Source: Propioniciclava sinopodophylli
GTDB lineage: Bacteria; Actinomycetota; Actinomycetes; Propionibacteriales; Propionibacteriaceae
Assembly: GCF_004324755.1 (NCBI RefSeq)
Contig: NZ_SDMQ01000019.1
Coordinates: forward strand, 1-38,064
Direction: 5' to 3'
Length of the DNA: 38,064 nt
The position numbers were made by a program, and so were the translations under genes. Positions 26,447 to 38,064 of the stretch are shown here, one piece after another. The notes below the pieces were generated by a model. The model searched no databases. It was not told the origin of the DNA and was given only the letters and a program-made list of their open reading frames with translations. The number at the start of each line of letters is the position of its first letter. Position 1 is the first letter of the stretch.

Positions 26447-29386
26447 TCAGAGCGGGTAGTTGATCACCGCTGACTTGGCGATCACCTCACCGTTGGCGTC
26501 CAGCAGCACGGCCTGGGCGTCCTCCCAGCCCTTGTTGCTGTTACCCGACCACCACGATGACTGCGTGGTGGTGCGCACCTGGGTCTTGCCCTTGCGGTCG
26601 GTCCAGGTGATCTGGAGCGTGCTCCCCTTCGGCATGAGGTCGACGACGAAGCCGAAGGCCTTGTCGCTGACCCGCTGCGTGGTGATCATCGGGCAGCTGT
26701 CCGGGTTGATCGGGTCACCCGACGTGGCGAGCACGTTTTCGTCGGCGTCCAGCACCGTGGCGACGGCGTTGCTCCACCCGGCCTGGCGGTCGCCCGACCA
26801 CCAGGTCAGCGAGTTCACGGTCGTGAACTGCTTCTGGCCGCCCCGCTCCCACTCGATGCGGAGCTTGGCACCCTCGGGAGCGCCAGTCACGCTGAACCCG
26901 AACGAGTTGCAGTCGAACCCGGTCGCCGTGACGAGCACCGGGTCGGCTGCGGGCGCGGCCGGCTTGAGGCCCACGATCACGGGGTCGTGGTCGGAGCTCG
27001 CGAACTCGTCGTCGCTGTGGAAGTCGACGGTGTTGTAGTTGCGCCGGCTGTACTGGAACGCGATGGACTCGTCGCCGTTGATGTCCCAGACGGCGGCACC
27101 GGTCACCAGGGCCATGGCCTCCTCGTTGGCGAACACGTGGTCCAGCGAGCCCAGGCGGCCCGAGAACTGGTACGTCGCCGAGTCTGGCGCGAAGTGCTTG
27201 GCGGTGTTGGTGTAGCCGGCGGCCTCGATGATCTGGACCGGGGTCTCTTTGCTGTACGCGTTGAAGTCGCCCATCAAGAAGGCGGCCTTTCCGGCGAACA
27301 TCTCGTCGACCCAGGCCACGAGCTGCCGGGACTGCGCCTCACGCGACGGGTTGGACAGGCCCTGGCCTGTGCCGTCGTCCTCGCCGGACCCCTTCGACTT
27401 GAAGTGGTTGGCGACGGTCACGAACGTGGTGGGGGAGTCGAGGACGGCGAACTCCTGCGCCAGCGGGTAGCGCGCGTTGGCGAAGGCCTCGTCCAGGTCG
27501 ATGAAGGACGGACCGACCAGCTCGACGACGCTGGGGTCGTAGAGGAAGGCGGTGCGGATGATGTCCTCGTTCGACGGGGTGACCGTCGGCGTCGGGGCGT
27601 AGGCCCAGCGGGTCGTCCCAGCGTCGGCGTTCAGGGCATCGACGAGCTGTGCGAGAGTGTGGTCGCGCGCGTGGTCGATGTAGCTGACGCCGGCGGAGTT
27701 CTCGATCTCCATCAGGGCCACGACCTCGGCGTCCATCTTGTTGATGGCGGCGACGATCTTGGCCTGCTGGTCGGCGAACGCGCTCTCGGAGTACGCGCCC
27801 CGCACCTCACAGTTGTTGGCGCCGACCGGGTTGCCGTACATGTCGGTGTACGCCTTGCAGCCGGTCTCGTTCACGCCGAGGTCGGTGAAGTAGTTGAGCA
27901 CGTTGAACGCGGCGATCTCGAGGTCGCCGCCGACGTTCGGCACGGTGTACTCGCGGTCGTTCTCGGAGACGACCGGGTCGTTGGGGTCGGTCGCGCCGAC
28001 GATCTGGTCGACCGGCTGGTAGTTCCACTGGAAGCGGTAGTCGAGGATCACCGGCTTGGCGAACGTGACCTGGGACGCCGTCCGCAAGGGCTCGTCCGCG
28101 CTGAGGTAGGGCAGCGGGGAATTCTTGGCGGTGGCGTTGGTCACGTAGTTCCACGAGGACCCGTCGTCCAGCGTGATGAGCTTGGCGAGGTTGGCGGTCT
28201 CGTACGCAGCAGCCTCGTCGCCGGGGGTCACCACGTCGGTGGCCTGGTAGAGCGGCTCATCGCCGAAGGCGAGGCCGAGCTGGCCGTACTGGTTGAGGCC
28301 GTAGTTGTTCGTGATCGTGTAGGTGCCCTGCGGCAGCACGAGCATGCCCTCGTACGCCTCCTTCTCGGCGTCCGTCTCCGGCAGGGTGGCGAGCGCGGTC
28401 GGGACGACCGGCGCACAGCCCTCGTACTCGGTCACCACGACGCTGCCCGAGATCTGGGTGAGGCCGTTGTACTCACCGGCCGTGCCCTCGACGCGCACAC
28501 AATCGCCGATCTGGACGTTGTTCGCCGCCCAGTTCGAGAACACGAACAGGCCATCGGACGCCTCGCCCGCGGCCTTCACAGTTCCGCCCGTGCCGGGGGT
28601 CTGGATGTAGATGCCGTTGAAACCACCGGTCGGGTAGGCCGCGGTGACGACGCCGTCGGTGACGACGGACTGGCCGGCGAGCGGCGTGGTGTCACCGGTG
28701 CCCTGGATCTGCGCGATCGGGGTGATCATCGGCTCCGGGTCGGGGTCAGGCGTGGGAGTCGGGGTGGGCGTGGGAGTCGGCGTGGGGTCCGGGTCGGTCG
28801 CCGAGCCCGAGTTGGTCGGCGAGGGGGCGCCGGTGGTGAAGTCGGCGCGGTTGTCGTCGGTGTCGACGAAGTTCGTCCGGCTGGCCGAGGTGGTGTTCGA
28901 CAACGTCGGCGCGGCGGCGCTGCCCTCGAAGCGGACGGCCGAGCCGAAGCCGACGAGATCGACGATGCCGGCGGGGCCGTTCAACTCGACGATCCCGTTC
29001 GTGCCCGACATCGGGGCCGTGCAGATGGTGTCCGGGGTTGGGAGCGGTTCGGTGCCGCCGGCGCCCTTCGCCTGCTGGATCAGGTAGTGGGAGTTGGCGG
29101 CAACCGAGCCGCTCAGGGTGCAGGTGTTCCCGATGTTGCCACCCGACGAGTAGTACTTGACGGTGTAGCCGGTCACGTCGATCGTGGCGCTGGTCGGGTT
29201 GTACAGCTCGACGAAGTCGTGGGTGTAGGTCGCGCCGGAGTTACCCCCGCCGCCGTACACCTCGTTGATGATCAGGCCGCTTCCATCGGGTGCTGCGGAC
29301 GCCGGCAAGGCGGTCAGACCCGTCACGGCCAAGGCCGTGGCCGCCAGTGCGGCGACTCCTCGGCGCAGGTGGGTGGTGAGTTGCAT
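26447..29386 (-). CDS. ExeM/NucH-type secreted endonuclease
   Basis: Secreted nuclease of 979 residues. In order: Sec signal (VTGLTALPASAA), a lamin-tail-like domain (LIINEVYGGGGNSGATYTHD, FVELYNPTS), a Pro/Thr/Asp linker near 200-220, an OB-like region (about 225-340), and an endonuclease/exonuclease/phosphatase domain (about 480-800) with EIAAFNVLNYF, VVALMEIEN, the catalytic regions VANHFKSKGSG and LMGDFNAY, and a final SSDHDPVIVGL. Two related modules of about 80 residues (819-899 and 900-979), each with WWSG and GW, close the protein. ATG 29386 is preceded by GGGAGA. It probably degrades extracellular DNA for phosphate and nucleosides. Confidence 0.92.
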   Translation of the reverse strand: MQLTTHLRRGVAALAATALAVTGLTALPASAAPDGSGLIINEVYGGGGNSGATYTHDFVELYNPTSATIDVTGYTVKYYSSGGNIGNTCTLSGSVAANSHYLIQQAKGAGGTEPLPTPDTICTAPMSGTNGIVELNGPAGIVDLVGFGSAVRFEGSAAAPTLSNTTSASRTNFVDTDDNRADFTTGAPSPTNSGSATDPDPTPTPTPTPTPTPDPDPEPMITPIAQIQGTGDTTPLAGQSVVTDGVVTAAYPTGGFNGIYIQTPGTGGTVKAAGEASDGLFVFSNWAANNVQIGDCVRVEGTAGEYNGLTQISGSVVVTEYEGCAPVVPTALATLPETDAEKEAYEGMLVLPQGTYTITNNYGLNQYGQLGLAFGDEPLYQATDVVTPGDEAAAYETANLAKLITLDDGSSWNYVTNATAKNSPLPYLSADEPLRTASQVTFAKPVILDYRFQWNYQPVDQIVGATDPNDPVVSENDREYTVPNVGGDLEIAAFNVLNYFTDLGVNETGCKAYTDMYGNPVGANNCEVRGAYSESAFADQQAKIVAAINKMDAEVVALMEIENSAGVSYIDHARDHTLAQLVDALNADAGTTRWAYAPTPTVTPSNEDIIRTAFLYDPSVVELVGPSFIDLDEAFANARYPLAQEFAVLDSPTTFVTVANHFKSKGSGEDDGTGQGLSNPSREAQSRQLVAWVDEMFAGKAAFLMGDFNAYSKETPVQIIEAAGYTNTAKHFAPDSATYQFSGRLGSLDHVFANEEAMALVTGAAVWDINGDESIAFQYSRRNYNTVDFHSDDEFASSDHDPVIVGLKPAAPAADPVLVTATGFDCNSFGFSVTGAPEGAKLRIEWERGGQKQFTTVNSLTWWSGDRQAGWSNAVATVLDADENVLATSGDPINPDSCPMITTQRVSDKAFGFVVDLMPKGSTLQITWTDRKGKTQVRTTTQSSWWSGNSNKGWEDAQAVLLDANGEVIAKSAVINYPL

Positions 29387-34103: not shown

Positions 34104-34429
34104 ACACCCATTGTGCATCCGCAGGGATGGCGGCAGATCCGGGTGTTTGGCGCCTTGAATCGCCGGAGCAGATAGCGGGGTGTGCTCCTCCCCGGTTCCT
34201 CCACGCCGAGCGGTCCAGCAGCCACATCGGCTGGCCTCAAGAGCAATTACAAGATCACCGCCGCGCACCGCCTATGCGGTGACCACAAGGTGTCCCGGAT
34301 CAGATCCCAGGGGCTGGGCGCTTGCAGGCAGCCCGAGGGCAATCGGTGCTGGCTTGGGCGTCGGTGATACGCCTCATCTGTAGCATCCATGCTGCAATGC
34401 CGAATCGGTTGCCCAACGATGGAGTCGAT
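34104..34429. other. no gene seen
   Basis: Intergenic stretch between the VOC gene and the next hypothetical gene. I see no convincing open frame, tRNA arm or strong hairpin. It marks a drop in GC towards the following gene. Confidence 0.4.
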
Positions 34430-35017
34430 ATGGATGAGGAGCATCTCGTCGCGGACGAGGATAGGAGTCGCTACGCAGCCCAAATGGAGCGCATCAAGCT
34501 CAGGATCGATGAGGCGCAGCGCGTAGCCTGCGAACTCGGAGACGAACGAGGACTCATCTACGCCGCAGCCCAACTCCGGCTTGCGATCGAGGAGATTGCG
34601 TTCGCTTCACTCGTGGGGAATCGGAAGGCTATGGAGGAAGCAGAACGAACTCTTGCTCTCAATGGATGGGACAAAGCCATTAAGAGTCTCCGAACTGTGA
34701 ACCCCGAGTACTGGCCTCGCGGCGTCATCGAGATCCGAGGCGAAACGAACGAATGGATCGACGTGACCGATGGCCTGTTCGAGTCGGATGTTGCGAGGAC
34801 TTGGGGTCGGCTCAGTCAGTTGCTTCATGCTCGGAATCCTTGGCGTGGGGTTCCTGACCTCAAGTCCGAAGGCGAGTTCATGATGTCACTGATCGGTCAG
34901 TTGCGAACCACCCTCAACGCTCATTTCATAACGCTGGCAGGCGACCGGCAGAAGCTCTTCTGCCAAGTGGGCTCTCAGCCCGTACGGGTCTACTTGTTCA
35001 CTCGAGTCGATGAGTAG
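34430..35017 (+). CDS. hypothetical protein of low-GC accessory type
   Basis: A 195-residue, mostly alpha-helical protein of unrecognised family. It has QLRLAIEEIAFASLVGNRK, NPEYWPRGVIEI and the motif WGRLSQLLHARNPW, which recalls helical proteins carrying a conserved histidine before Asn-Pro that often sit in mobile regions. A HEPN-like fold is possible but unproved. ATG 34430 is preceded by GGAG 8 nt upstream; the longer in-frame start at 34322 lacks this. Codon use is visibly less GC-biased than the chromosome around it, suggesting transfer. Its 3' end abuts an IS110 remnant. Confidence 0.7.
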   Translation: MDEEHLVADEDRSRYAAQMERIKLRIDEAQRVACELGDERGLIYAAAQLRLAIEEIAFASLVGNRKAMEEAERTLALNGWDKAIKSLRTVNPEYWPRGVIEIRGETNEWIDVTDGLFESDVARTWGRLSQLLHARNPWRGVPDLKSEGEFMMSLIGQLRTTLNAHFITLAGDRQKLFCQVGSQPVRVYLFTRVDE

Positions 35018-35039
35018 CAATCTCGTGGCGCACGCGGGG

Positions 35040-35389
35040 TTCGACGCGATGCTCCAGTTCGCGGCCGTCTGGCCGCAGCGGGGGGTCGAGGGATTTGCCG
35101 GGATCGGCCGTCACGTCGCCGAGCGACTCCTGTGCCAGGGCGAGTCGGTGGTGGACGTGCCGGCCAAACTGTCGGCCCGGATGCGGATGTTCACCACCGG
35201 TCAGGGCCGCAAGACCGGCGACACCGACGCCCACGCCATCGCCCTGGTCGGGGTCCGGATCACCGGCCTGCCCCGGTCGTGTCAGATGAGCAACTGGAGG
35301 TCCTGCGCCTGTTGGTCGACCGGCGCCGACGCATCGGTGAGGAACACGTGGGGCGCGCTGGCCGTGGCCTTCATGTACCCGGACGAGTC
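35040..35389 (+). mobile_element. IS110-family transposase remnant, frameshifted
   Basis: The plus strand encodes FAAVWPQRGVEG, GIGRHVAERLLCQGESVVDV, PAKLSARMRMFTTGQGRKTG and DTDAHAIALVGVR, the N-terminal DEDD-type part of an IS110 transposase. Around 35285 the match moves to another frame (SDEQLEVLRLLVDRRRRIG). The first part (the G-x-D start), most of the transposase and the element ends are missing. The remnant stops where the ubiquitin-like operon ends, so it may mark an insertion or deletion boundary. Confidence 0.8.
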
Positions 35390-35803
35390 TCACCAGCGCC
35401 GGATCAGGTGCCAGAGTTGTTCTAGCCACCGGTATCGTCGGAGCTGCTCTCTCTGGCCCTGTCGACGGAGGTCTGTGGCGTCTCGCTGCTGAGCTTCGGT
35501 GATCTCGTCAGGCGTGAATCGGTTCGCCCAACGGATTCGACCGTGGTCGATCCAGTAGTGGGATTGACAGGGCAGATTCCAGTTGCCGATCGAAGGCTTC
35601 AGCGTGACGTTGCGTCCGTCATAGGTGAAGCGCCATTGCGCTGGCGACAAGGGGGCTATGACTTCGAGTCCACAGCCGCAGGCGCAAAGGTGAGCGGTGG
35701 TGTTGTATCTGATCGAGACGTAGATGCGATCCGCCTCGAGAGGCTCTGGGAAGCGGTCCACGAACACTGGGTCGAGGCGGCTCGCTGGCATCGGGCGGCT
35801 CAT
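35390..35803 (-). CDS. DUF6527 family protein
   Basis: A 137-residue protein of DUF6527, a family found beside ubiquitin-like and ThiF genes. Seen: YNTTAHLCACGCGLEV with Cys 40, 42 and 44 and His 38, then LKPSIGNWNLPCQSHYWI with Cys 79, Ser 81 and His 82, then a basic helical tail. The Cys/His set suggests zinc binding; I recall a proposal that the family acts as the Ubl protease of Bub-type operons, which cannot be checked here. ATG 35803 overlaps the E1-like stop as ATGA. It is the last gene of the operon. Confidence 0.8.
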   Translation of the reverse strand: MSRPMPASRLDPVFVDRFPEPLEADRIYVSIRYNTTAHLCACGCGLEVIAPLSPAQWRFTYDGRNVTLKPSIGNWNLPCQSHYWIDHGRIRWANRFTPDEITEAQQRDATDLRRQGQREQLRRYRWLEQLWHLIRRW

Positions 35804-36978
35804 GCGAAGTCTTCGTTGGAGATCTCGTTGGTGTAGATCGAGTAGGTGCAGAAGCCCTCCCGGTCGCCGGCATAGAAGCCGAGGTGCCGCTTCCACCGAA
35901 TCACGGCCATGAGAGCGTTGAGGGCGTTGAGGTCGGCGATTTGGATATTCCGGCCATAGTCCTCCCCTCCCCCGGCTCCTTGCGGGATCCGGTCGAGCAA
36001 GTGCACATGATCGCGGTGGTCGGGTGTGCTGGTGGTGGTCCGGAGCAGTCCGGTAAGCCGTCCGTCCACCTCTTCGATTCCCATGCCGACGTCGATGAAG
36101 CCGGTCTGATGGCCTTCAAGGTAGGTGATGATTGCCGTCTTGCCGTGCGGGTCGTCGGAGCAGAGGAACACGAAGTCGAGACCGTCGAGCAGGTTGAGGT
36201 TGGTGGATTGCAGGTACTCGGCGTGGGGCTGGATCGCTCGGCGCATGTGTCCGTACAACTCGGCGAAGTACTCGACCTTGAACGGGTGCGCCTGGAGGGT
36301 GGCGAGGCGGGCTGCTCCGGGAGCTCGGAAGGCGTTGTGGTTCTCGAAGCGGTCGCCGTCGATCAGGCGGATCTGGGCCACCGGTGTCTTCGCGACCTGA
36401 TCCAGAACGTATCCTCCGGTGCCACCTAGCCCCACGATGCCGATCTTGAGGCCGCGAAACAGCGCGTTGAGGCGTCCGAGAGCGGCCCGTGAGGTGGCAG
36501 TGTCGGGGTAGACGAAGACATCGTCTTGGGGAGCGTCGCCATCCCAGTCGGGGCCGGGAGTGGCGGTCACTGTCGGGTCCAGTGCAAGCGCTTCGTGGGA
36601 AAGGATCCGCACGTATTCTGTGACCTTGGCGTACTGATCGGGGTACACGCCTTCAGGCATGGGCTTGGACGAGAGCATGTAGTTGGCGGAGAGCCCGGGT
36701 CGAATCTCGCGTGGATTGGTGCTGGCCAGGATCAGCGGTTGGCCGCTGGCGCTGTGGGGCTGGTCGCCCACCAGCCACAGCTCGTGGGCGCATTGCGGCA
36801 GGATCCGGTCACCGGAGTAGGTCACCGGGTAGGCCAGCTGGCCGTAGGCGACCGTGTGGGTGGCGGTGACGTAGGGCACGTGGTGAACGATCAGCCAGTT
36901 GTTGTCCAACGAGAGCCTGTAGCCCTCCTGGACGAGTCGCTGCAGGTCGGGCTCACGAGCGAACGGTGCGGACGACAT
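35800..36978 (-). CDS. E1-like enzyme: DUF6791 plus ThiF domain
   Basis: A 392-residue protein. The N-terminal part (about 10-140) fits DUF6791 (LVQEGYRLSLDNNWLIVHHV, HELWLVGDQPHSASGQ, ALDPTVTAT). The C-terminal ThiF/E1-like adenylation domain (about 163-370) has the nucleotide loop GIVGLGGTGG (GLGGTG 183-188), LIDGDRFENHN and VFLCSDDPHGK. It would adenylate the C-terminus of the Ubl encoded upstream. No cysteine lies in the usual crossover loop (about 311-345); the only cysteines are C63, C273 and C377, and the zinc CxxC pairs of classical E1 are absent. The start overlaps the Ubl gene by 26 nt, with AAGGGA before it. Confidence 0.9.
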   Translation of the reverse strand: MSSAPFAREPDLQRLVQEGYRLSLDNNWLIVHHVPYVTATHTVAYGQLAYPVTYSGDRILPQCAHELWLVGDQPHSASGQPLILASTNPREIRPGLSANYMLSSKPMPEGVYPDQYAKVTEYVRILSHEALALDPTVTATPGPDWDGDAPQDDVFVYPDTATSRAALGRLNALFRGLKIGIVGLGGTGGYVLDQVAKTPVAQIRLIDGDRFENHNAFRAPGAARLATLQAHPFKVEYFAELYGHMRRAIQPHAEYLQSTNLNLLDGLDFVFLCSDDPHGKTAIITYLEGHQTGFIDVGMGIEEVDGRLTGLLRTTTSTPDHRDHVHLLDRIPQGAGGGEDYGRNIQIADLNALNALMAVIRWKRHLGFYAGDREGFCTYSIYTNEISNEDFA

Positions 36979-37207
36979 CGAAGACCATTCCCTTCTTGAC
37001 GGCGACGGTCTTGGCGGAAGTGAGTGTCCCGGTGCCGTGGCCGTCGTGGCCTCGGCTGTACCGGACGGTGTAGGTGATGTCGGGGTTGGGGGTGTCGTCG
37101 GGGTAGGCCAACGCCACGACCTGTTCGTAGCTGATCTTGTTGTTGGTCCAAGTCCGCGGCCGCGTGTTGACGATGACGGTGGTGTGGCTGTTGGCGTTGT
37201 GAGGCAT
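36953..37207 (-). CDS. ubiquitin-like protein (Multi_ubiq / prokaryotic Ubl type)
   Basis: An 84-residue protein with a beta-grasp-like pattern: TVIVNTRPRTW, ISYEQVVALAYPD, ITYTVRYSRG, GTLTSAKTVAVKKGMVFDV and the end VVRTVRS. The order and the KxGMxFxV element match the small Ubl proteins found beside ThiF and DUF6527 genes. There is no C-terminal Gly-Gly and only one domain. ATG 37207 is preceded by AAGGAGA. The 3' end overlaps the E1-like start by 26 nt, so substrate and activating enzyme are co-translated. Confidence 0.8.
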   Translation of the reverse strand: MPHNANSHTTVIVNTRPRTWTNNKISYEQVVALAYPDDTPNPDITYTVRYSRGHDGHGTGTLTSAKTVAVKKGMVFDVVRTVRS

Positions 37208-37319
37208 GAGGTTCTCCTTGCGTTGCGAACGGAGCAGACATCGATCCGAGTGTCCGCAGGACCCTTGTGGTCCCTTCTGCCTGGTAGTCGCCTCAGCCGC
37301 AGGTTTCTTTAGGGCTGCC

Positions 37320-37922
37320 TCACTGACAGTCGACGCAGATCCCGTCGGTGCCCACCAGGTGCCGCTGCTTGCGCTGGAAGCAGCGGCTGCACAGGAGCTC
37401 GCTCGCGGCCCGCTTGTCGCATTGGCACTGCTTGCAGCTTGGGCAGTAGAAGCCGTTGCAGTCCGGGCAGGGGAATGTCGAGACTTGATGGGTCTTGCCG
37501 CAACAGGTCAACTCGCCCAAGAATCCTCGTCGGTACTCGCGAGGCCCATCCAGATGCAACTGCTCGCTGCCCCAGAGGTCGCGGTCGGCGAAGATCGCTA
37601 CAATTTTCCCGTAGTGGCGGCACGCGTCGACGTAGTAGGGGGCCTGATCTCCCCACGGTGTGGTCCAGGTCATCCGCCGTCGAGCATCGAGTTCGGAGCC
37701 GTCACGCAGCCGCTGCAGGGGATGGCCCTCGGGGAGAAGCTGGCGACGCCAAGGAAAGCTGGCCGGCCAGCCCCGCTCGCTGTCGGGCTGAACGCAGGCC
37801 AGGTCGACCTCTCCCCGTTCGATGTTGATCAGGACGATCCCGGCCGGTCCCATGAGGCGCCGGCTCAGCGCGATCGCGCAGACCGCCATGCTCGCCTGCG
37901 AGGCCTCGAAAAGGTCCACCAC
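37320..37922 (-). CDS. zinc-cluster protein heading the ubiquitin-like operon
   Basis: A 200-residue protein if it starts at GTG 37922; the frame stays open to the window edge with no other start, so it may be longer. Residues 1-125 look like a small sensor domain (LSRRLMGPAGIVLINIERG, WTTPWGDQAPYYVDACRHYG), possibly GAF-like, which is inference. Residues 140-199 carry twelve cysteines (140, 141, 152, 155, 160, 163, 166, 168, 178, 181, 196, 199) with spacing typical of several zinc knuckles or a RING/treble-clef assembly. It is 112 nt upstream of the Ubl gene on the same strand. No strong ribosome-binding site precedes GTG 37922. I do not recognise a named family. Confidence 0.7.
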   Translation of the reverse strand: MVDLFEASQASMAVCAIALSRRLMGPAGIVLINIERGEVDLACVQPDSERGWPASFPWRRQLLPEGHPLQRLRDGSELDARRRMTWTTPWGDQAPYYVDACRHYGKIVAIFADRDLWGSEQLHLDGPREYRRGFLGELTCCGKTHQVSTFPCPDCNGFYCPSCKQCQCDKRAASELLCSRCFQRKQRHLVGTDGICVDCQ

Positions 37923-37953
37923 ACCGGTGGCGCTGATCCCTGATCCACCGGTG
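37922..37953. promoter_or_regulatory. pair of CACCGGTG palindromes at the zinc-cluster gene start
   Basis: CACCGGTG occurs at 37922-37929 and 37946-37953, 24 bp centre to centre, the first touching the proposed GTG. Two equal palindromes this close could be an operator of the operon; if the gene begins further upstream they lie inside coding sequence instead. Confidence 0.3.
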
Positions 37954-38064
37954 TCGTGGCGGGTGTGGGCGTGGCATGGGGCGAGGTGACCGTTCTGAGC
38001 AGGGAGGATGGTAATTGCTGAAGTCGCCGTCCACCGCGTCGAAGGGTCACCTCGTAAGTGAAAG

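Follow-up and report, generated by a model that had tools for sequence, protein, structure and literature searches.

A type 6e ubiquitin-like operon behind a cassette of sigma factor and interrupted M78 peptidase in Propioniciclava sinopodophylli

Two kinds of described operon stand close to the locus reported here. In the passages of PMC1779556 that deal with operon type 6e, Iyer, Burroughs and Aravind (2006) set out a subset in which the E1-like enzyme carries an unrelated N-terminal domain replacing JAB, with the actinobacterium Fsp. marked, together with a metal-binding partner of signature C-x3-C-x(35-38)-H-x2-C and an inactive E2/RWD-like protein that is variable in place, being fused, separate or absent. 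For the Bub operons, portions of PMC13373217 state that 219 of 544 carry CapW or CapH plus CapP, which respond to DNA damage; that single-stranded DNA (ssDNA) activates CapP, which cleaves CapH, while CapW binds ssDNA; and that phage protection by Bub operons is so far undemonstrated. We analysed a ubiquitin-like protein (Ubl) operon near the end of a 38,064-nucleotide stretch (the window), which is contig C10 of the Propioniciclava sinopodophylli genome (3.07 Mb, 43 contigs). The locus consists of a three-gene core, which is the type 6e variant without JAB as those passages describe it, and a three-gene upstream cassette in which one gene is interrupted.

The three-gene core

Three minus-strand open reading frames (ORFs) encode a Ubl, an E1-like enzyme and a DUF6527 protein, and each overlaps the next, the first pair by 26 nucleotides and the second by the tetranucleotide ATGA at 35800-35803 (Table 1). 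The initial annotation, made from the letters of the sequence, had drawn these frames and overlaps, and its coordinates were confirmed. Pfam matched all four profiles that it had named (Multi_ubiq, DUF6791, ThiF and DUF6527), and the ubiquitin-like fold that it expected is supported by homology, as the Ubl profile matches PDB chain 9cd2, deposited as a multi-ubiquitin domain protein (E = 2.2e-16). The enzyme also exceeds the NCBIfam cut-offs of PRK06153.1-4 (2.8e-116) and PRK06153.1-3, both of which are 'hypothetical protein' models.

Table 1 Features of the locus in window coordinates, except where contig C2 is named
Feature	Position	Strand	Observations
Ubl, 84 residues	36953..37207	-	Single Multi_ubiq domain, Pfam PF14452 2.3e-15; ends ...RTVRS
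E1-like enzyme, 392 residues	35800..36978	-	Pfam DUF6791 2e-41 and ThiF 2.8e-9
E1 N-terminal DUF6791 domain	36499-36951	-	Pfam
E1 ThiF adenylation domain	about 36082-36450	-	Pfam
Ubl/E1 frame overlap, 26 nucleotides	36953..36978	-	ATG or GTG at the equivalent place in 40/42 loci
DUF6527 protein, 137 residues	35390..35803	-	Pfam PF20137 7.8e-25; putative metal site H38, C40, C42, C44, C79, H82
3' fragment of ImmA/IrrE (M78) metallopeptidase gene	37320..37937	-	Cysteine-rich C-terminal cluster; 46% identity to Nocardioides protein residues 152-353
Target-site duplication ATCAG, 5 bp, right copy	37933..37937	-	Left copy on C2 flank (L039)
Right end of multi-copy insertion sequence	37938..38064	-	Inverted repeat CCCTGATCCACCG; five other copies, 99-100% identity
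Promoter-like motif CCTAAAG-N16-CGACTAC	37284..37313	-	Between M78 tail and Ubl gene; operon side of the insertion
Second motif copy	C2:117936-117965		Before the sigma gene

We compared the operon with 45 related loci, comprising 22 from a species-genome collection, 21 of the 115 plasmid records that hold an E1 relative (nine from a list of best matches and 12 from a spread list) and two from phylum-sample genomes. By construction all 45 contain the E1 gene; the DUF6527 gene is found in 44 (not L019) and the Ubl gene in 43 (not L022 or L023). A start codon is kept at the position of the 26-nucleotide overlap in 40 of 42 loci (the exceptions being L068 and L069, and L059 being left out of the count owing to its orientation), and the overlap is therefore more than chance.

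The core agrees with type 6e, as PMC1779556 presents it in those passages, in its Ubl of one to three repeats, central E1-like gene, small, putatively metal-binding protein and sporadic distribution. One Multi_ubiq domain is present here, and longer versions occur in proteobacterial and cyanobacterial loci. As in the 6e variant, the E1 has DUF6791 before ThiF and no Pfam match to JAB; DUF6791 presumably corresponds to the domain X of Iyer and colleagues. Differences from the type are that neither JAB nor an RWD/E2 protein is found among the proteins of the operon, and that the DUF6527 pattern C40-x3-C44-x34-C79-x2-H82 is one residue short in its spacing and has its last pair reversed. We conclude that the Ubl/E1/DUF6527 core is real and ordinary for its kind.

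In the DUF6527 family, C40, C42, C44, C79, H82, S71, S81 and Y83 are conserved in all 45 sequences and H38 in 42 of 45, and we propose the conserved cysteine and histidine set as a putative metal site. The family profile had no match in the PDB at E values up to 10, and the AlphaFold model was poor, with a predicted local distance difference test (pLDDT) of 55. A Rieske-like assignment came from a weak match (E = 0.4) and was not used.

The last residue of the Ubl is serine, never glycine, in all 43 relatives. The bases of its last codons also encode E1 residues 7-9, which are variable (R, H, L or P at residue 8; D, N or S at residue 9), which makes selection acting at the Ubl end the simpler way to explain the invariant serine. 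In an alignment of 46 E1 sequences, S103 is conserved in 46, K105 in 45 and H65 in 44 of the 45 that have a residue there. Eight residues of the ThiF domain (G183, G185, G188, D207, D209, R218, K234 and D296) are conserved in all 45 sequences having a residue at the position; we take these, from MoeB-type enzymes, to be adenylation-site positions. Cys75 is present in 38 of 45 aligned sequences, the exceptions being the window enzyme (His, codon 36756-36754), L027, L060, L062, L068, L069 and L072, and thus the enzyme has no universal cysteine; an earlier reading of the family as lacking any conserved cysteine was overturned by the same count. The initial annotation had called the system one of conjugation. 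With no C-terminal glycine on the Ubl and no invariant cysteine in the enzyme, we use that term for a proposed function only.

The AlphaFold model of the E1 has a mean pLDDT of 72, with ten-residue blocks from 11 to 140 between 66 and 92. Foldseek placed Citrobacter BubCD at the top (3.1e-9, template modelling (TM)-scores about 0.4), with MccB, TcdA, PaaA and UBA5 close behind. By profile, the BubCD match is limited to E1 positions 167-299 of 391, that is, to the ThiF part and outside DUF6791; likewise, all 23 PADLOC matches to E1-E2 models, which describe the enzymes of type II cyclic-oligonucleotide-based anti-phage signalling systems (CBASS) and of Bil, fall inside E1 residues 161-287, again in the ThiF part and not across both domains. 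The absence of a stand-alone E2 or JAB, as initially annotated, held for the 15 window proteins (of many ORFs) scanned with Pfam and, for the Prok-E2_E and Prok-E2_B families, across the whole genome; JAB was not searched genome-wide. We considered DUF6791 itself as an E2 fold and rejected it. In hhalign, 44 DUF6791 sequences gave a probability of 0.5% against four Prok-E2_E sequences together (one of the four being below the family cut-off) and 1.4% against one alone, the controls being 0.2% for an unrelated Ubl profile and 0.04% for an M78 profile.

The interrupted cassette and its shared motif

The initial annotation had read a fourth gene ahead of the Ubl gene, a complete zinc-cluster protein that it could not assign. 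This frame is instead the C-terminal half of an ImmA/IrrE (M78) metallopeptidase, broken here. ORF 37320-37922 (200 residues) has no match in Pfam, NCBIfam or PADLOC; its frame is open up to the end of C10, and homology already starts at 37937, ahead of the GTG (37922). The full-length relative in Nocardioides furvisabuli (L017) has HELGH ahead of an equivalent cysteine-rich tail, and a search of the genome with it placed residues 152-353 on C10 (46% identity) and residues 42-146 at the end of contig C2 (45%). The C2 half carries HELGH and matches Peptidase_M78 above the cut-off (3.7e-8, 33.7 bits). Since the frame runs to the contig end, homology extends upstream of the GTG and the N-terminal half lies on C2, we rejected the zinc-cluster ORF as an independent gene. 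Fused relatives in L017, L021, L019 and L025 score 17.9, 21.7, 23.9 and 23.6 bits against the M78 profile of Pfam (cut-off 22), two of the four falling below it, and HELGH was confirmed in L017, L021 and L025.

Both contig ends belong to repeated DNA. The terminal bases of C10 recur at five other places at 99-100% identity, with one further match of 31 bases, and those of C2 at three other places at 100%, with one further match of 19 bases. The same inverted repeat is found at both ends, ATCAG lies on both flanks, and other copies have compatible 5-bp flanks; in the assembly, the insertion-sequence ends (window 37938-38064; L039 7558-7680) coincide with several contig ends or lie no more than 76 bases from them. 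The end fragment had no match in the plasmid collection. From the shared inverted repeats, the ATCAG flanks and the multi-copy ends, we conclude that the M78 gene is split by an insertion sequence that separates its peptidase domain from its tail. The ATCAG flank also occurs at two other contig ends, and we therefore pair C2 with C10 on the evidence of gene continuity and of the gene order in L017.

Upstream of the M78 gene, C2 carries genes for a 175-residue sigma factor and a 209-residue protein, both with open frames, with overlaps of 4 and 11 nucleotides. The sigma factor has sigma-70 regions 2 and 4 only (PF04542 2.4e-7, PF04545 2.9e-11), which fits the extracytoplasmic function (ECF) type; that the 209-residue protein is a repressor or anti-sigma factor is our guess. 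L017 shows the uninterrupted order of sigma factor, 209-residue homologue, M78, Ubl, E1 and DUF6527. Comparison across genomes thus kept the core of the four-gene operon that had been annotated and moved its fourth member, the M78 fragment, to the cassette upstream.

A motif, CTAAAG-N16-CGACTAC, has exactly two copies in each of two genomes, that of the window and that of L017; in both, one copy precedes the sigma gene and the other the Ubl gene, and the reversed control pattern had zero matches. In a 30-base comparison, the two copies agreed at 24 of 30 positions in the window genome, where the best of 30 shuffles reached 20, and at 22 against 20 in L017. To judge from sequence, the motif is presumably a promoter served by the operon's own sigma factor.

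M78 peptidases are common ahead of related operons. Within 6.5 kb upstream of the Ubl end, 33 of 43 loci hold an M78 frame, and 24 of these are independent of the profile seeds; WYL proteins lie upstream in three of 43, all of them seeds, giving M78 or WYL in 36 of 43. On a Klebsiella plasmid (L028, 2792-6187), a fusion directly before the Ubl gene joins M78 with a UvrD helicase and a PD-(D/E)XK nuclease; UvrD-related frames also precede Ubl in L029, L036, L037 and L038, from proteobacterial and cyanobacterial plasmids (in two pieces in L029 and L036), and in L073 a long M78 frame occupies the position of the L028-type fusion. The annotations of L027, L069, L070, L065, L066 and L071 show divergent pairs of helix-turn-helix (HTH) and ImmA/IrrE genes, or WYL regulators, and an unannotated divergent pair in L026 matches HTH_3 and M78. 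RES/Xre-type toxin-antitoxin genes lie upstream of the Ubl operon in L067 (5133-6165) and L068 (5195-6314), where no M78 was found.

Origin, proposed working and alternatives

The operon is sparsely distributed. DUF6791 was found in none of 56 near relatives (57 genomes searched, this genome being the sole positive) and in three of 396 phylum-sample genomes including this one, that is, in two of 395 others. Relatives of the E1 were found in 115 of 72,556 plasmid records and at 22 loci of the species-genome collection, and were absent from the 50,697 phage records searched. The closest that we found are actinobacterial, in line with the affinity initially annotated, and related operons occur on plasmids of Actinomycetota, Pseudomonadota, Cyanobacteriota, Bacteroidota and Bacillota. 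The guanine plus cytosine (GC) content of the operon stretch is 64-65%, compared with 66-73% over most of the window, with exceptions. Just downstream (window 35010-35420) lies an IS110-like transposase remnant, which matches five plasmid records at 73-81% DNA identity over 78-133 bases, three of them annotated as IS110 family. The patchy distribution, GC content and IS110-like remnant fit horizontal acquisition, and the operon was probably acquired in this way. A tRNA search found none in the window, L039 or L017. Acinetobacter supplies 45 of the 115 plasmid records, and Tn7-like transposition genes lie downstream of the operon on the Klebsiella plasmid (L028, 9747-15167), a possible vehicle.

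On balance, and by a small margin over an even chance, we favour the view that this is a horizontally acquired, DNA-damage-inducible Ubl operon of the 6e kind behind a sigma factor/209-residue protein/M78 cassette, working as follows. DNA damage, in the form of ssDNA, would activate the M78 peptidase, which would inactivate the co-encoded 209-residue protein and so free the operon's own sigma factor; this would drive its own promoter and that of the Ubl gene through CTAAAG-N16-CGACTAC. The ThiF domain would then adenylate the C-terminal serine of the Ubl, which may be passed to an acceptor with the help of DUF6791 and without need of a universally conserved catalytic cysteine, DUF6527 acting as a metal-site cofactor, target adaptor or deconjugase. 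We infer the sensing of DNA damage from CapP, as portions of PMC13373217 describe it; the pairing of sigma factor and promoter, adenylation, transfer and a protective role are likewise inferred. The insertion should disrupt the M78 protein, and induction in this strain is therefore probably altered or lost; the three core genes remain intact, as does the motif that precedes them. A more specific form of the proposal, which we regard as rather unlikely, is that the sigma factor, small regulator and Cys-tailed peptidase form a DNA-damage switch and that Ubl transfer proceeds through S103, K105 and H65 of DUF6791, with neither C-terminal Gly nor essential Cys. If true, it would provide a sigma-based counterpart of CapH/CapP and a distinct Ubl-transfer chemistry.

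Several observations weigh against the favoured view. Among the 33 M78 loci are nine that served as seeds of the profile, including L026, whose anchor, HAINH, is perhaps not its active site; upstream of the Ubl gene, seven of 43 loci show neither M78 nor WYL. Few loci have the sigma cassette: three of 43 carry a related sigma gene, two of the three being profile seeds. The 209-residue protein has no Pfam match. Of the seven other loci compared for a shared motif, six were not above shuffles; L029 alone was (21 versus 19), and there the matched bases take in the Ubl start codon. Within the enzyme, D275 of the ThiF domain is Asp in only 41 of 44 sequences, DUF6791 has no profile similarity to Prok-E2_E in hhalign, and His75 together with the insertion could mean decay.

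That last point is the core of the strongest alternative, in which the locus is a decaying remnant in this strain, its sensor disrupted and its enzyme deprived of a functional cysteine. The insertion sequence with its 5-bp duplication in the M78 gene, the His75 where 38 of 45 sequences have Cys and the IS110-like remnant just downstream all fit this. Yet the three core frames are open, with their conserved overlaps and residues kept, the sigma and 209-residue genes also have open frames, the insertion does not separate the Ubl gene from the motif ahead of it, and Cys75 is missing in six other loci too. We consider decay unlikely.

Another possibility is that the E1 modifies the C-terminus of the Ubl itself, as MccB does with its peptide, and that a nucleotide-capped or otherwise altered small protein is the active product. 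MccB acts on the C-terminus of its peptide, and in the fold search its chains are interspersed with those of BubCD; the Ubl has Ser, and not Gly, as its last residue, the enzyme is without an invariant cysteine, and the two E2 families are absent elsewhere in the genome. However, BubCD, whose pathway is called ubiquitination-like in print, is the best match by structure; MccB does not stand out, as TcdA, UBA5 and other ThiF proteins score almost as high, and DUF6527 would be left without explanation. We find this reading doubtful. A sulfur-carrier or cofactor pathway of the ThiS/MoaD kind, rather than signalling, would account for the ThiF-family adenylation domain but is very improbable given a Ubl without C-terminal Gly-Gly, the frequent M78 or WYL genes upstream (36 of 43 loci), and the patchy distribution with 115 plasmid records.

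Elsewhere in the window, a 979-residue protein (26447-29386) has lamin-tail and endonuclease/exonuclease/phosphatase domains and is possibly a nuclease, and a 231-residue plus-strand ORF adjoining the operon (34322-35017) has no Pfam or PADLOC match. PADLOC found no match in eight other window ORFs of the many present.

Comparison with described systems

What sets the locus apart from type 6e is the cassette of sigma factor, 209-residue protein and M78 peptidase upstream, which the passages of PMC1779556 do not show. DUF6791, DUF6527, PF20590 and PF20137 are named in none of the literature searched, which left out two Bub mechanism papers; as far as literature listings tell, the cassette, with its M78 tail and two-copy motif, is the new part.

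The Bub pathway (PDB 9ea4, 9ea5, 9ea8, 9eae and 9eav, as known from titles and references) provides BubCD, the best match both by profile, in the ThiF part, and by fold. Unlike in Bub, the match does not span the whole length, the fold TM-scores are only about 0.4, and the genome has no Prok-E2_E, the family to which we take BubB to belong, BubB itself not having been used as a query.

The regulators offer the other parallel. As with CapH and CapP in the portions of PMC13373217 cited above, an HTH gene and an M78 peptidase stand beside an immune-type operon, as divergent pairs in L026, L027, L069 and L070; and, like CapP, the M78 peptidase has HExxH (HELGH on C2), its gene being interrupted in the window genome. 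In contrast to CapH and CapP, the peptidase in the window genome and in L017 has a cysteine-rich tail and is co-directional with the operon, a sigma factor is present, and the partner protein has no Pfam HTH match. The strict C-terminal Ser and non-universal Cys make this family a test case for Ubl activation without the canonical Gly and Cys, and the proposed sigma/M78 switch would tie a Ubl operon to DNA damage, as reported for Bub and CBASS regulators.

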